Source: Nitrospiria bacterium (GTDB taxonomy: Bacteria; Nitrospirota; UBA9217). From it: a stretch of 56,906 bases of DNA. The stretch covers positions 1 through 56,906 of the forward strand of contig CAKKRC010000049.1 of NCBI GenBank assembly GCA_919902495.1, given 5' to 3'. Below, in pieces: positions 8,889-48,479 of the stretch. The position numbers and the translations under genes were made by a program. The notes under the pieces were generated by a model. The model searched no databases, was not told the origin of the DNA, and saw only the letters and a list, made by a program, of their open reading frames with translations. The number at the start of each line of letters is the position of its first letter. The stretch's first letter is position 1.

Positions 8889-9227
8889 ATGCGTATCGCG
8901 GCATGCTATAGGACAGCAGCGATCATTGTTTGTGTGATCATGATAACGGCTGGATGTTCAAGTCCTGTCCGTTACATTGATGAGGCGCCGCAGTTCAGGA
9001 GTGTACTGGAACCGGAACCGTATTCCAGGAGCATGCTCGATCAGGATATAAAATTACACGGTGTTCTGGAGTCAGAACCATATTTCAGGAGCGTGCTCGA
9101 TGCGGATATCAAGCTGCAGGGTGTCCTCGCTGCAGAGCCGTACTCCAGGAGCATGCTTGATCCGGACGCCAAGCTGCGAAGCGAACTTGATGAACAACCT
9201 TTATTGCGGCCTGTCCTTGGACGTTAG
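8889..9227 (+). CDS. Small lipoprotein with three 20-residue tandem repeats
   Basis: 112 aa from the ATG at 8889 (an in-frame ATG at 8856 would add 11 residues). A hydrophobic stretch leads to the lipobox ITAGC-SS, so it should be lipidated and membrane-anchored. The mature part is almost entirely three 20-aa units beginning EPYSRSMLD, EPYFRSVLD and EPYSRSMLD, each continuing with a D-(I/A)-KL block, plus partial units at both ends (QFRSVLEP and QPLLRPVLGR). The 60-bp DNA repeat spans 9015-9194. I know no family with this repeat; a structural or surface role is a guess. A near-consensus promoter lies upstream. Confidence 0.75.
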   Translation: MRIAACYRTAAIIVCVIMITAGCSSPVRYIDEAPQFRSVLEPEPYSRSMLDQDIKLHGVLESEPYFRSVLDADIKLQGVLAAEPYSRSMLDPDAKLRSELDEQPLLRPVLGR

Positions 9228-16956: not shown

Positions 16957-16976
16957 GTCAGGGGTCAGGGGTCAGG
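16957..16976 (+). repeat. 7-nt tandem array (GTCAGGG)
   Basis: Nearly three exact units directly after the TAA of the thioredoxin gene. The same word, reverse-complemented, forms the array inside the kinase gene at 47572-47603. Confidence 0.85.
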
Positions 16977-38100: not shown

Positions 38101-38874
38101 ATGCTCTTACTTGAAACCAAAAACCTTACCAAGCACTTCGGCGGCCTCAAGGCCATCGAGGGCATCGACATCCGCGTCGAGCGCGAGCGCATCGTGAGCA
38201 TCATCGGCCCGAACGGCGCCGGGAAGACCACGCTCTTCAACTGCATCACGGGCATCTACCGGCCCACGCAGGGAAAGGTGTCCTTCACCGACCGGGACGT
38301 GACCACAATGGCGCCCCACGACATAACCGCCCTGGGCGTGGCGCGCACCTTTCAGAACATCCGGCTCTTCGGCGGCATGACCTGCCTCGAGAACGTCATG
38401 GTGGCCGCCCATTGCCGCACGAAGGCGGGGTTCTTCGGGGCCATCATCCGTCCTTCGAAGGTGAAGAAGGAAGAGCGGGACATGAGCTACCGCGCCATGG
38501 ACATCCTGAAGTTCGCCGGGCTCGAAGCGAGGCATGCCACGGTCGCGGCGAACCTGTCCTACGGCGACCAGCGCAGGCTCGAGATCGCCCGGGCACTGGG
38601 GACCGAGCCGCACCTCCTTCTGCTGGACGAGCCCGCGGCAGGCATGAACCCGCAGGAGACGCAGGAGCTTATGAACCTCGTTCGCAGAATTCGCGACAAC
38701 GGCGTGGCGATCATCCTGATCGAGCACGATATGAAAGTGGTCATGGGCATCTCGGACCGCGTGGTGGTGCTCGACCACGGCGTGAAGATCGCCGAGGGCC
38801 TGCCGAAGGACATCCAGCAGGACCCCGCGGTGATCGAGGCGTATCTGGGGAAAGACCATCAACAGCACACATGA
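38101..38874 (+). CDS. livG: Branched-chain amino acid ABC ATPase LivG
   Basis: 257 aa from the ATG at 38101. Walker A GPNGAGKTTLFNCITG, the LivG-type insert around GVARTFQNIRLFGGMTCLENVMVA, signature NLSYGDQRRLEIARALG, Walker B LLLLDEPAAGMNPQE and H-loop ILIEHDMKVVMGI; it ends near PAVIEAYLG, as LivG does. It energises import with LivF. Only the GGTGA from repeat R11 stands upstream as ribosome site. A 264-base repeat-filled gap separates it from livM. Confidence 0.96.
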   Translation: MLLLETKNLTKHFGGLKAIEGIDIRVERERIVSIIGPNGAGKTTLFNCITGIYRPTQGKVSFTDRDVTTMAPHDITALGVARTFQNIRLFGGMTCLENVMVAAHCRTKAGFFGAIIRPSKVKKEERDMSYRAMDILKFAGLEARHATVAANLSYGDQRRLEIARALGTEPHLLLLDEPAAGMNPQETQELMNLVRRIRDNGVAIILIEHDMKVVMGISDRVVVLDHGVKIAEGLPKDIQQDPAVIEAYLGKDHQQHT

Positions 38875-40924: not shown

Positions 40925-40970
40925 TTGCAACTTGCAACTTGCAACTTGCAACTTGCAACTTGCAACTTGC
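40925..40970 (+). repeat. Perfect 7-nt tandem array (TTGCAAC)
   Basis: Six full TTGCAAC units and a partial seventh without a mismatch, about 100 bases before the multiheme cytochrome gene. Length variation by slippage is likely. Confidence 0.95.
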
Positions 40971-41065: not shown

Positions 41066-41977
41066 ATGAGGATTTGGCTGAATGCATTACTGTCGATGCT
41101 GTTCACCTTTCTTCTGATCACGACAGCGGGCGCGGCGACCGATTCGGCAACGTGCCTGAGCTGTCACGGATCGATGGAAGGGGCTGTCAATGTCAGCAAG
41201 GATAAGTACGAGAAGTCCGTCCATGGTTCCTTTGACTGCGTCATGTGTCACGTAGCGCCCAAGGGCGCACAGCACCAGGGCATGGGCGGCGCTGCGCCGG
41301 ACAAGGCGGTCAAGGAGTTCGCCGCCGCCATCGCGCCGAAGGGGCTCAAGGACACCCTTGCCGCGGCCGCCTGCGTGGGCTGCCATCCGGACAAGGTGGA
41401 GGACTACAAGGGCAGCATTCACGGACAGAACGTGATCGTCAAGAAGTCCGCCGACGGACCGGTCTGCACGAGCTGCCACGGGGTTCCCCACTACATAGAG
41501 AAGCGGCCGAGCATGGCGTCGAAGGTGTACCGATTCAACATCGTCGAAAGCTGCGGCAAATGCCATGAGGAAAAGCACATCACGGAGAAGTACAAGTTCT
41601 CGCCGCTCGTGATGGAGCGGTATAAAGAAAGCTTCCACGGCAGAAAGCTCAAGCTCGGCCATGCGGGCGCTCCGTCCTGCGCCAACTGTCATGGCTCCCA
41701 CGCGATCGTGAGCGCCAAGGACCCGAAGTCGCCCGTCAGCTCGGTCGAGGCCAAGAAGAAGACCTGCGGCAACGCCGCATGCCATCCGGGAGCGACCGAG
41801 AAGTTCGTGGCCGCCATCACCCACCAGCCGCTCCACCCGGTCGCCCACTTTGCCGAGATCGCCCTGATCCTTCTCACCGTGGGCGTGTTCATGTTCATCA
41901 TCATCCATGTGCTTCTTGACATATTCGCGGACATTCGCGACCGTCTGTTCAGGAAGGGAGGCGACCACCATGAATAA
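41066..41977 (+). CDS. Heptaheme c-type cytochrome with C-terminal membrane anchor
   Basis: 303 aa from the ATG at 41066 (AAAGGAG upstream). Signal peptide ends near AGAA. Six CxxCH haem sites are visible (CLSCH, CVMCH, CVGCH, CTSCH, CGKCH, CANCH) and one expanded CGNAACH (CX4CH), so up to seven haems. A C-terminal helix (IALILLTVGVFMFIIIHVLLDIF) anchors it, with a short basic tail. It overlaps the cytochrome b gene by eight bases. Together they look like a quinol-linked periplasmic electron-transfer module; the terminal acceptor is unknown. Haem spacing resembles NapC/NrfH or cytochrome c552-like multihaem proteins only loosely. Confidence 0.93.
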   Translation: MRIWLNALLSMLFTFLLITTAGAATDSATCLSCHGSMEGAVNVSKDKYEKSVHGSFDCVMCHVAPKGAQHQGMGGAAPDKAVKEFAAAIAPKGLKDTLAAAACVGCHPDKVEDYKGSIHGQNVIVKKSADGPVCTSCHGVPHYIEKRPSMASKVYRFNIVESCGKCHEEKHITEKYKFSPLVMERYKESFHGRKLKLGHAGAPSCANCHGSHAIVSAKDPKSPVSSVEAKKKTCGNAACHPGATEKFVAAITHQPLHPVAHFAEIALILLTVGVFMFIIIHVLLDIFADIRDRLFRKGGDHHE

Positions 41978-45337: not shown

Positions 45338-46699
45338 TTATTCCTCCTCCAGCCCGTACTTCTTGAGCTTCCGCCAGAGCGAGACGCGGTCGATGCCGAG
45401 GATCTGCGCGGCCAGGGTCTTGTTGCCGCCGGCCTCGTTCAGCACCCACTTGATGTAGGTCATCTCCTGTTCTTCCAGTGAAGGGATCTTCCCCTCCACT
45501 TTCCGGAAGGTCTTGAGGCTCAGCTCTTTCAGGTGTTCCGGCAAATGGGCCAGCTCGATGGTGTCTCCATTGGCGAGGGCGATCCCGCGCTCAATGATGC
45601 TTTCCAGTTCCCGTACATTGCCCGGGAAACCGTACTCCGTAAGCAGGCCGATCACCTCTTCCGCGATCTCCTGCACGGGCTTCTTCAGGGCATCCGCGTA
45701 CTTCTTCAGAAAATAATAGGACAGGAGGGGGATGTCCGCCTTCCGGCCGGAAAGCGGGGGAAGGTGCAGCGATACGACATTCAGACGGTAGTAGAGGTCC
45801 TGCCGGAACGGGGCCTGTCCCGGCGCTTCGAGCGGTTCCTGCTCGGCGGCGGCGATGATCCGCACATCAGTCTTGACGGACCGTGTCCCGCCGATGCGCT
45901 GGATCTCCTTCGCTTCGAGCACCCGGAGCAGCTTTGCCTGGACCGGTAGATGCATCGCGGTGATCTCTCCAAGAAAGAGCGTTCCGCCCGCAGCTTCCTC
46001 GATGGCGCCTTTCTTCGCGGCCGGCCCATCCGGAGACATGCCTTTTTCATGGCCGAACAGTTCGTCCGCGAGCTTTTCCTCGGTGAAGCTTCCGCAGTGT
46101 ACGGCAACGAAGGGATGTTCGAAACGCTTGCTCTTGGCATGGATCGAGCGCGCGAAGAGCTCTTTCCCCGTGCCTTTCTCTCCGATGATGAGCACATTGG
46201 ATTCAACGAGCGCGACCTGACGGGCGGTATCCAAGGGCTTCTGCATCGCCCGGTCACGGCTGATGATCCCGCCTTCTCCCGGGAAGTCCTCAGCGCGTTC
46301 CTTCAGACGCTTGATCCCTTTCTTCATTTCGACGCGACTGACGGCCTCGGAGACCGCCTTCCTCACCTCGTCGAGCTTGAAGGGCTTCGCGATATAGGAG
46401 AACGCCCCGTGCTTCATCGTCTCGACGGCCGCCTCCAGCGTCGCGTACCCGGTGATCATGATGACCTCGGTGTCGGGTTGGCGCTCGCGGCATTTTTTCA
46501 ATACCTGCATGCCGTCCACCTTCTCCATACGCATGTCGGTAAGCACCACGTCGAACTGCTGTTCATCGAGATAGCGGATGGCATTCGAGCCGCTCTGCGT
46601 GCCCACGACCTCGTAGCCTTCCTTTTTCATGATGTACTCGAGGTTCTTGAGCGCCACACGCTCATCATCAACGATCAATATCTTTGCAGGATTATTCAT
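45338..46699 (-). CDS. NtrC-family response regulator with degenerate sigma-54 motifs
   Basis: 453 aa from the ATG at 46699. Receiver domain with Asp55 (VVLTDMRMEK) and the conserved Lys in YIAKPFKLDE. AAA+ domain with Walker A GEKGTGKELFARS, but the GAFTGA loop is replaced by GMSPDGP and Walker B has LFLGEI where LFLDEI is normal. Later elements are intact (RQDLYYRLNVVSLHLPPLSGRKADI, GFPGNVRELESIIERG). A C-terminal HTH (GNKTLAAQILGIDRVSLWRKL) remains. GAFTGA contacts sigma-54 and the Walker B Asp is needed for ATP hydrolysis, so this protein probably binds DNA but cannot open sigma-54 promoters. Partner is the kinase at 46923-48479. Confidence 0.93.
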   Translation of the reverse strand: MNNPAKILIVDDERVALKNLEYIMKKEGYEVVGTQSGSNAIRYLDEQQFDVVLTDMRMEKVDGMQVLKKCRERQPDTEVIMITGYATLEAAVETMKHGAFSYIAKPFKLDEVRKAVSEAVSRVEMKKGIKRLKERAEDFPGEGGIISRDRAMQKPLDTARQVALVESNVLIIGEKGTGKELFARSIHAKSKRFEHPFVAVHCGSFTEEKLADELFGHEKGMSPDGPAAKKGAIEEAAGGTLFLGEITAMHLPVQAKLLRVLEAKEIQRIGGTRSVKTDVRIIAAAEQEPLEAPGQAPFRQDLYYRLNVVSLHLPPLSGRKADIPLLSYYFLKKYADALKKPVQEIAEEVIGLLTEYGFPGNVRELESIIERGIALANGDTIELAHLPEHLKELSLKTFRKVEGKIPSLEEQEMTYIKWVLNEAGGNKTLAAQILGIDRVSLWRKLKKYGLEEE

Positions 46700-46730
46700 T
46701 TGTATAACCTCAGAACAGAAATACCCTCTT

Positions 46731-46917
46731 GCCACGGAGGCAGGTCGACACGGTGAAAATAAAAACCTTTGACACGGATAAAATCCGATAGAAACTATGA
46801 TAACGGCGGATACGGCAACTGCTTATATCATATTTCATCCGAGTTGTTTCCGGTCTTCTTTTCCCTGTCCCCCTGTCGGTTCTTCTTTGTCCCCGCGTCT
46901 CCGCGTCCCCGTGTCGG
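46731..46917. repeat. Armed repeat R16 (GACACGG) with shared core
   Basis: Left arm GCCACGGAGGCAGGTCGACACGG then TTTGACACGG; right arm CCGCGTCTCCGCGTC and CCCGTGTCGG. Contains the 19-nt block (46795-46813) shared with R13. Lies between the regulator and kinase genes. Confidence 0.78.
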
Positions 46918-46922
46918 CTTTT

Positions 46923-48479
46923 TCACTTCACCGGCAGTCTGATCAGGAACGTTGTGCCTTTTCCCGGTTCGCTGCTGACCGCGATGCATCCGTCATGCTC
47001 CTCGATGATCTCATGGACGATGTAGAGCCCGAGCCCGGAACCCTTGCCCACGTCCTTGGTAGAGAAGAACGGGTCGAAGACCTTGGGGAGGACCTCGGCG
47101 GGGATCCCGGCACCGTTATCCATGAACTCGATGTCCACGGTGTCATCTTCGATGGTGCATTTGCCGCGGTACTTGAGATACGTGGTGATCCCCGTGTCGT
47201 CGTCCGCCTTGTCCACGGCGCGGCGCTTCCGGGCTCCGATGGAAATGGCGCCATTTCCCGTGACCGCCTCGATGGCGTTCTTGATGAGGTTCAGGAATGC
47301 CTGCTGGATCCGCTGCTTGTCGGCAGTGATGGAAATATCGTCCGGCACGTTCAGGGTGATGGTCACGTTCTTGGGCATCTGTCCTTTCACGAACCGGATG
47401 GTCTCCTCCAGCGTGTCTCTGAGCGGCAGGGACTGCTTGCTGAAATCCATGGTGCGTGAGAACTCGAGGAGGGACCGCACGATGTTCCGTGCCCGGTCCG
47501 TCTGCTCGTTGATCTGGCTGACCAGCTCGATCATAAACGCTGAATCCGGGACCGGTGTTGCCTGTCGTGTCCCCTGAGCCCTGACCCCTGACCCTTGACC
47601 CTCCTTCAGTTCCTCTGAAAGGATCTGTCCCGACGAAGAGATGTTCGAAAGGGGATTGTTCAGCTCATGGGCCACCCCCGAGAGGAGCGTGCCGAGCGAG
47701 GCGAGCTTTTCCGACCGGACAAGATGGCGCTGCCGGAGCTCGAGCTCGCGGATCATCCTGTTGAAGGCCCGGGTAAGCGAGACGATCTCCTGCTCATGGG
47801 ACCCGATCTGGATGTTGACGAACTTCCCATCAGCGATCTCGTCCATGGTCGTCTCGATGCGCTGCAGGGGCAGCAGGACGATCCGGGAAAGGACCCTGCC
47901 CGCGATGACCACCAGGACGGCAAGCACCACGATCGATCCGATGACGATCCTCTGGGTACCATGGCTTTGCTCGATGAGGCTCTTGCGTTCGCTCATTTCG
48001 ACGTCCAGGGCAGCGGTCGTGATGTTGTCCCCGATGCTCCGTATCCTGAAGTCGATCATGTTCTTGCGCTCCTGGATGGACGGGGCGAAGGTGAAGGATA
48101 TCTTGCCGGAGAGGGCAAAGTGCCGCTCCATCTGCTCCCGGTACTGGTCAAGGAGCTTCTGGACGGCCTGGATGCGGTCGGGGGACGCGATGGTGTCGAA
48201 CCGTTTGCTCTTCATGACGAGCAGGTCCTGTGCCTGGGCAATGTATCGCGCATTCTCCCGGTAGTCGGTCTGCCGCTCATAGAGCAGGTAGTTCTTCTCG
48301 AAGCGCCTTACCTCGAGGACGGTATCGAGGAACTCATGGACCGCGGCGCCGAAGATCATCCTCGTTTCCATGAATTCCATCTGCGCCAGCGTGATGATGG
48401 AAAGGCCGATGACCATCCCCATGAAGGCATAGTATCCGAAGGTGATCTTTTGCCGTATGCTGAGCTTTGCGTTGACCAT
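46923..48479 (-). CDS. Sensor histidine kinase, partner of the degenerate regulator
   Basis: 518 aa from the ATG at 48479. Two membrane helices (FGYYAFMGMVIGLSIITL; IVIGSIVVLAVLVVIAGRVL) frame a periplasmic helical sensor of about 160 residues; a HAMP domain follows (~205-260). HisKA with phospho-accepting His271 ([13 protein letters not shown]); ATPase with N box FLNLIKNAIEAV, G1 MDNGAGIP, F box VFDPFFSTK and G2 GSGLGLYI. The loop between the two DHp helices is enlarged by about 15 residues (GQGSGVRAQGTRQATP) encoded by a 7-nt tandem array. Divergent from the second kinase. Confidence 0.93.
   Translation of the reverse strand: MVNAKLSIRQKITFGYYAFMGMVIGLSIITLAQMEFMETRMIFGAAVHEFLDTVLEVRRFEKNYLLYERQTDYRENARYIAQAQDLLVMKSKRFDTIASPDRIQAVQKLLDQYREQMERHFALSGKISFTFAPSIQERKNMIDFRIRSIGDNITTAALDVEMSERKSLIEQSHGTQRIVIGSIVVLAVLVVIAGRVLSRIVLLPLQRIETTMDEIADGKFVNIQIGSHEQEIVSLTRAFNRMIRELELRQRHLVRSEKLASLGTLLSGVAHELNNPLSNISSSGQILSEELKEGQGSGVRAQGTRQATPVPDSAFMIELVSQINEQTDRARNIVRSLLEFSRTMDFSKQSLPLRDTLEETIRFVKGQMPKNVTITLNVPDDISITADKQRIQQAFLNLIKNAIEAVTGNGAISIGARKRRAVDKADDDTGITTYLKYRGKCTIEDDTVDIEFMDNGAGIPAEVLPKVFDPFFSTKDVGKGSGLGLYIVHEIIEEHDGCIAVSSEPGKGTTFLIRLPVK
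47572..47603 (-). repeat. 7-nt tandem array inside the kinase gene
   Basis: Plus-strand units CCTGAGC, CCTGACC, CCTGACC, CTTGACC at 7-nt steps; on the coding strand GGTCAGG words. Same word family as the intergenic array at 16957-16976. It encodes the loop extension after His271 helix 1. Confidence 0.88.

Follow-up and report, generated by a model that had tools for sequence, protein, structure and literature searches.

The window, the whole 56,906-nucleotide stretch of DNA analysed here, belongs to the draft genome of a Nitrospiria bacterium (genome G000, of family f1) and carries a two-component gene pair with a seven-nucleotide tandem array inside the kinase gene. The features concerned are as follows.

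45338–46735, minus strand: partner response regulator of the NtrC/AtoC sigma-54 type; the kinase-regulator order is kept in relatives
46923–48479, minus strand: sensor histidine kinase of 518 amino acids, AtoS/ZraS-like, with Pfam domains HAMP (residues 196–247), HisKA (262–342) and HATPase_c (387–517)
47667–47669, minus strand: codon of the phospho-accepting His271 (HELNN)
47551–47606, minus strand: extended inter-helix loop of the DHp domain, about 17 codons longer than in short-loop orthologues (from a length comparison of 26 kinases, the gap against ZraS and CckA, and pLDDT)
47572–47603, minus strand: heptanucleotide array with units GGGTCAA, GGGTCAG, GGGTCAG and GGCTCAG followed by GGG, coding for residues ~293–303 (EGQGSGVRAQG)
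16957–16976, plus strand: intergenic array of GTCAGGG x 2.9, directly 3' of the stop codon of a TlpA-like thioredoxin gene

The kinase has the marks of a two-component sensor, namely a HisKA domain with the HE-x-x-N histidine, a HATPase_c domain and an adjoining response regulator gene; its match to the NCBIfam AtoS/ZraS model falls below the cut-off. Kinase and regulator are 61% and 66% identical to their counterparts in a congener (G001), and PrfC and TrpE are 97% and 87% identical between the same two genomes. The low identity of the two-component pair at 45338–48479 suggests that it has either evolved rapidly or been replaced.

Read on the minus strand from 47603 to 47572, the array consists of four 7-nt units and about 3 further nucleotides, in frame with the open reading frame 46923–48479. 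Its place in the protein agrees with the preliminary description, which put it at the hairpin end of the DHp domain, in the loop that follows helix 1 with its His271. The same description called it an exact-step array; the step is indeed exactly 7 nt, but the units are not identical, position 7 being A or G and position 3 of the fourth unit having changed from G to C. Two observations establish that the tandem units exceed chance, as in long simple sequence repeats (SSRs). First, the window contains five two-unit matches when up to one mismatch is allowed, against 0.04 expected from dinucleotide shuffles, and these five make up the kinase array and the array at 16957, so that the word said to be common to the two sites is indeed shared. 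Second, the self-match at lag 7 is 19 of 21 in the best 21-nt stretch, compared with 6–11 at other lags (p=0.0005 by letter shuffle; p=0.001 by random synonymous recoding of the same peptide with approximate codon weights). Because the array is purer than synonymous recoding gives, the period resides in the DNA and is not imposed by the protein, and something keeps or renews the similarity of the units there.

Related arrays are dispersed through the genome. The exact two-unit word GGTCAGGGGTCAGG has 25 matches in the whole of G000, and the reversed control has 0; GTCARGGGTCARGG is enriched in f1 and in a second family of the same phylum, f3, and is nearly absent from other families. In a 426-kb sample of G000, chosen partly for array-bearing stretches and hence biased upward in its share of GGGGTCA arrays, period 7 is the commonest among non-overlapping arrays (n=28, with 12 of period 8 and 8 of period 9), and a Markov control of the sample contains no period-7 arrays. 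Several other heptamer units occur in it, among them ATTGCGG, TTGCAAC and GAGTGCG. As in long SSRs, the arrays are spread over many sites and are mainly intergenic, often 50 bp or less from the end of a gene; clear in-frame arrays within a protein are those of the kinase and of trpE, others lying at a C-terminus or right before a start codon. Sampled relatives have fewer arrays than G000. All genomes compared are draft assemblies, and three contigs of G000 (C13, C37 and C62) have their first bases inside heptamer arrays; assembly thus probably fails across longer arrays, which are undercounted as a result. TTGCAAC x 6.6 at 40925–40970, without a mismatch, is the purest heptamer array in the window, and further heptamer arrays occur nearby at 38873, 38917 and 39660. 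In addition, an apparent coding stretch at 8996–9177 holds three imperfect tandem repeats of 60 nt (20 codons).

The nearest solved kinases, ZraS and CckA, are 13–17 residues shorter at the loop. In an AlphaFold model of the kinase, built on a shallow alignment of seven sequences (mean pLDDT 68) and used only for loop confidence, a helix extends to residue ~296, pLDDT is below 50 at ~296–309, and helix 2 follows. The DHp loop is thus without confident structure in this model and lies between the two helices. Its absence from the solved kinases and its lack of confident structure both count in favor of an array that is tolerated at this position.

In a draw of 396 genomes from the phylum, 25 close homologues of the kinase were found, the G000 kinase included; the taxonomic class of G000 comprises 14 genomes, all of one family. 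A kinase search of genome contigs matched distant kinases alone, mostly from Acidobacteria. Most homologues are short-looped, with 14–15 residues. A long loop of 24–40 residues is present in nine kinases, seven from f1, one from f3 (G053) and one from f30 (G169), and is missing from the kinases of G004, G005 and G006 and from nearly all orthologues outside f1. In a kinase tree built without the loop, the nine are scattered with weak support and the G000 kinase sits on a long branch; many losses, transfers between families or several gains are therefore all possible.

The kinase of the congener G001 has a loop of equal length in which 16 of 23 residues are kept (EGQGSGGKGQGTRQGAPFPDPAF in comparison with EGQGSGVRAQGTRQATPVPDSAF). 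Of the 27 codons compared in the loop region, 9 are unchanged, 9 differ synonymously and 9 encode another residue; the 92-residue DHp segment is 85% identical, against 61% for the whole kinase. The array itself has decayed in G001 by point changes, its lag-7 match being 14 of 21 and not significant against synonymous recoding (p=0.13). The preliminary description held that an orthologue keeping the protein loop without the array would speak against a tandem insertion in this gene, and the closely similar loop of G001 comes essentially to that. Nor is the array peculiar to the G000 gene copy. A GGGTCAR profile set in one phase relative to conserved codons fits four kinases from three families (30/32 in G000, 27/32 in G001, 25/32 in G053 and 21/32 in G169), a fit to these arrays that 0 of 2000 shuffles equal; the same profile detects no significant array in G002, G008 or G013. 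This shared phase makes an independent origin of the four arrays unlikely, unless a flanking anchor fixes the phase, and the comparisons indicate that the long loop predates the species, for which reason the term insertion does not hold.

The trpE array lies outside the window, on contig C38 at about 41130–41160, where four pure GGGGTCA units form an in-frame part of the linker that joins the two TrpE domains (gene and domains assigned by sequence recognition). A period-7 stretch is present in this linker in all eight f1 genomes with this TrpE (lag-7 match 16–21 of 21; letter-shuffle p ≤0.001, synonymous-recoding p 0.0005–0.024), and three genomes outside f1 have a TrpE linker without a period-7 array. 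The period is thus not forced by the protein here either. The repeated word differs between species and genera, being GGGGTCA in G000 and G003, GGGTCAA-like in G002, GGCGTCA in G001 and G010, GGCGKGA in G008, GGKRGCC in G004 and AAGTTCA in G005. The stretches compared measure 75–81 nt, and a length so nearly fixed is not the mark of simple net slippage.

The most probable reading, to which we assign a probability of about 0.72, is that the kinase array belongs to a dispersed and mostly intergenic set of heptanucleotide simple-sequence arrays, is of old origin, is tolerated in a flexible DHp loop and is not a working switch. The position of the TrpE array, likewise in a linker, counts toward this reading. 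Counting against it are the purity of the G000 array beyond what the peptide needs and the weakly supported kinase tree with its long G000 branch, which leaves room for several separate gains or for transfers between families. The array would have arisen by polymerase slippage at a flexible, length-tolerant site between DHp helices 1 and 2. It would have survived there for want of a stop in any G-rich frame and because a Gly/Gln/Ser/Arg peptide makes a harmless linker, while selection keeps the length and frame of the loop. A net change of one unit in a frame-locked array is a knock-out, and homogenization must then be length-neutral or compensated. The similarity of the units may be upheld by length-neutral exchange between adjoining units, either through transient misalignment, in which a base is copied from the neighboring unit before realignment, or through gene conversion between units.

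The preliminary description had remarked that the frame is kept despite a unit that does not make up whole codons. The array is in frame, but this is unremarkable. Reading GGGGTCA or GGGTCAA cyclically gives seven triplets with no stop among them, and the opposite strand has one TGA, so that the array can be read through in the G-rich orientation only; the kinase and trpE arrays both have this orientation, and only open alleles survive. The same rule of a stop-free orientation was reported by MacGregor for TAACTGA repeats (PMC4679880).

Other explanations fare less well. It is unlikely that the loop is selected as protein, as a flexible basic peptide acting on bundle geometry or partner binding, with the DNA period as a by-product. 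Compared with G001, the loop is conserved to much the same degree as the remainder of the protein (16/23 residues, against 61% identity), and DHp loops are reported to decide between cis and trans phosphorylation (Ashenberg 2013, as cited in PMC5956149); by analogy, a role of this loop in the kinase is possible. However, the long loop ranges from 24 to 40 residues where it occurs, several f1 orthologues lack it, a sign that it is dispensable, and selection on the peptide does not account for a lag-7 purity above that of synonymous recoding. Quite improbable, too, is a modulation of kinase expression by a G-quadruplex (G4) formed in the mRNA or the coding strand, as proposed for the GGGNATC repeats of Xanthomonas and Nostoc. 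The kinase arrays of G000 and G001 do contain at least four G3 runs with short loops, a predicted four-G-tract motif, and in period and G-rich type they match the repeats for which Rehm et al. reported G4 formation in vitro (PMC4692102). However, most orthologous arrays lack the motif, which is absent from the G002, G053 and G169 kinases and from the TrpE array in five of eight genomes, one of them with the G-poor unit AAGTTCA. Conservation of G4 potential is rejected on this distribution, and a G4 function appears unlikely as a conserved property. The weakest proposal, that slippage gains and losses of units make this a contingency locus that frameshifts the kinase and turns the two-component system off and on, is very improbable: heptamer switches within reading frames exist (neuO, PMC13001214) and a one-unit change would frameshift the gene ahead of the ATPase domain, but the kinase array has only four units with mismatches where a long, pure, slippage-prone array is called for, the G001 loop is of equal length, all nine long-loop kinases, compared between species, are open reading frames with no internal stop or frameshifted allele, and the arrays of G000 are chiefly intergenic.

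Among six gap-free TrpE sequences, 67 differences are shared between positions 7 nt (one unit) apart, and each other lag between 3 and 12 yields no more than 9, a descriptive count among related sequences. Such an excess is nonetheless the expected mark of concerted change. Selection on the protein would not be expected to alter one unit position alike in all copies, because a 7-nt unit does not make up whole codons. In an alignment read by eye, the gap-free arrays also appear to share one phase. Transposition of a ready-made array into trpE is unlikely, for the only two-unit GGCGTCA word of G001 is the one within trpE, and this favors change in place. Independent de novo arrays at one TrpE or kinase site are likewise unlikely given the shared phase, save with a flanking anchor that fixes it. 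The replacement of the TrpE repeat word between species is thus length-neutral, or nearly so, and unusual. Unit differences, judged by eye, are also seen at two intergenic sites: G001 has ACAGCAG x 3 after the tlpA-like gene where G000 has GTCAGGG, and the region upstream of prfC holds GGGGTCA/GGGTCAA in G000, NNGTTCA in G002 and no array in G001. It is conceivable, at somewhat less than even odds, that short arrays in f1 persist at fixed coding and intergenic sites while their units all change together to a new word and length and phase stay the same or nearly so. The TrpE linker is the foremost candidate, and the kinase loop, the tlpA 3' spacer and the prfC 5' region are perhaps others.

Heptamer arrays as such are already a known kind (Mrazek 2007; Rehm 2015; MacGregor 2015). 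As Mrazek et al. (2007) are cited in PMC4679880, heptamers are the commonest class of long repeat in most genomes studied; slippage is the usual explanation and 7 nt perhaps the stretch held by the polymerase. Relative to the long SSRs as presented there, the present case differs in having two arrays in frame in core genes and in one phase across genera or families. The GGGNATC repeats of Xanthomonas and Nostoc are similar in being 7-nt, G-rich, often of about four units, dispersed and mainly intergenic near gene ends (PMC4692102); the unit here is instead GGGGTCA/GGGTCAA, and its G4 potential is not conserved among orthologous arrays. The TAACTGA repeats of Beggiatoaceae, cyanobacteria and Bacteroidetes are likewise dispersed heptamers, rare in open reading frames, where they are either oriented so as to avoid stops or placed at gene ends (PMC4679880). 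They consist, however, of one unit, whereas several units occur here, and the unit at a given site differs between species. Borg tandem repeats also give rise to flexible or disordered protein segments, and a conserved gene, TolA, hosts different units in different genomes; they are perfect amino-acid repeats on archaeal extrachromosomal elements, unlike the short 7-nt unit and conserved length found here (PMC9879509). The neuO gene of E. coli K1 shares with the kinase a 7-nt array in coding sequence with the frame set by unit number, but its 3–53 AAGACTC units lie in the 5' region, vary among strains and give the ON state if divisible by three (PMC13001214), whereas the kinase array, with four impure units and a constant length, lies in the middle of the protein.

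The kinase array is a warning that a heptamer array in coding DNA need not be a phase switch. The TrpE arrays are the more important of the two. If true, concerted rewriting of the unit would amount to length-neutral concerted evolution on 30-nt arrays, for example by transient-misalignment (dislocation) copying, a process of which, to our knowledge, there is no description for bacterial heptamers. With the TrpE arrays, the long-standing question of the origin and uniformity of bacterial heptamer repeats becomes testable at one conserved gene across a family.
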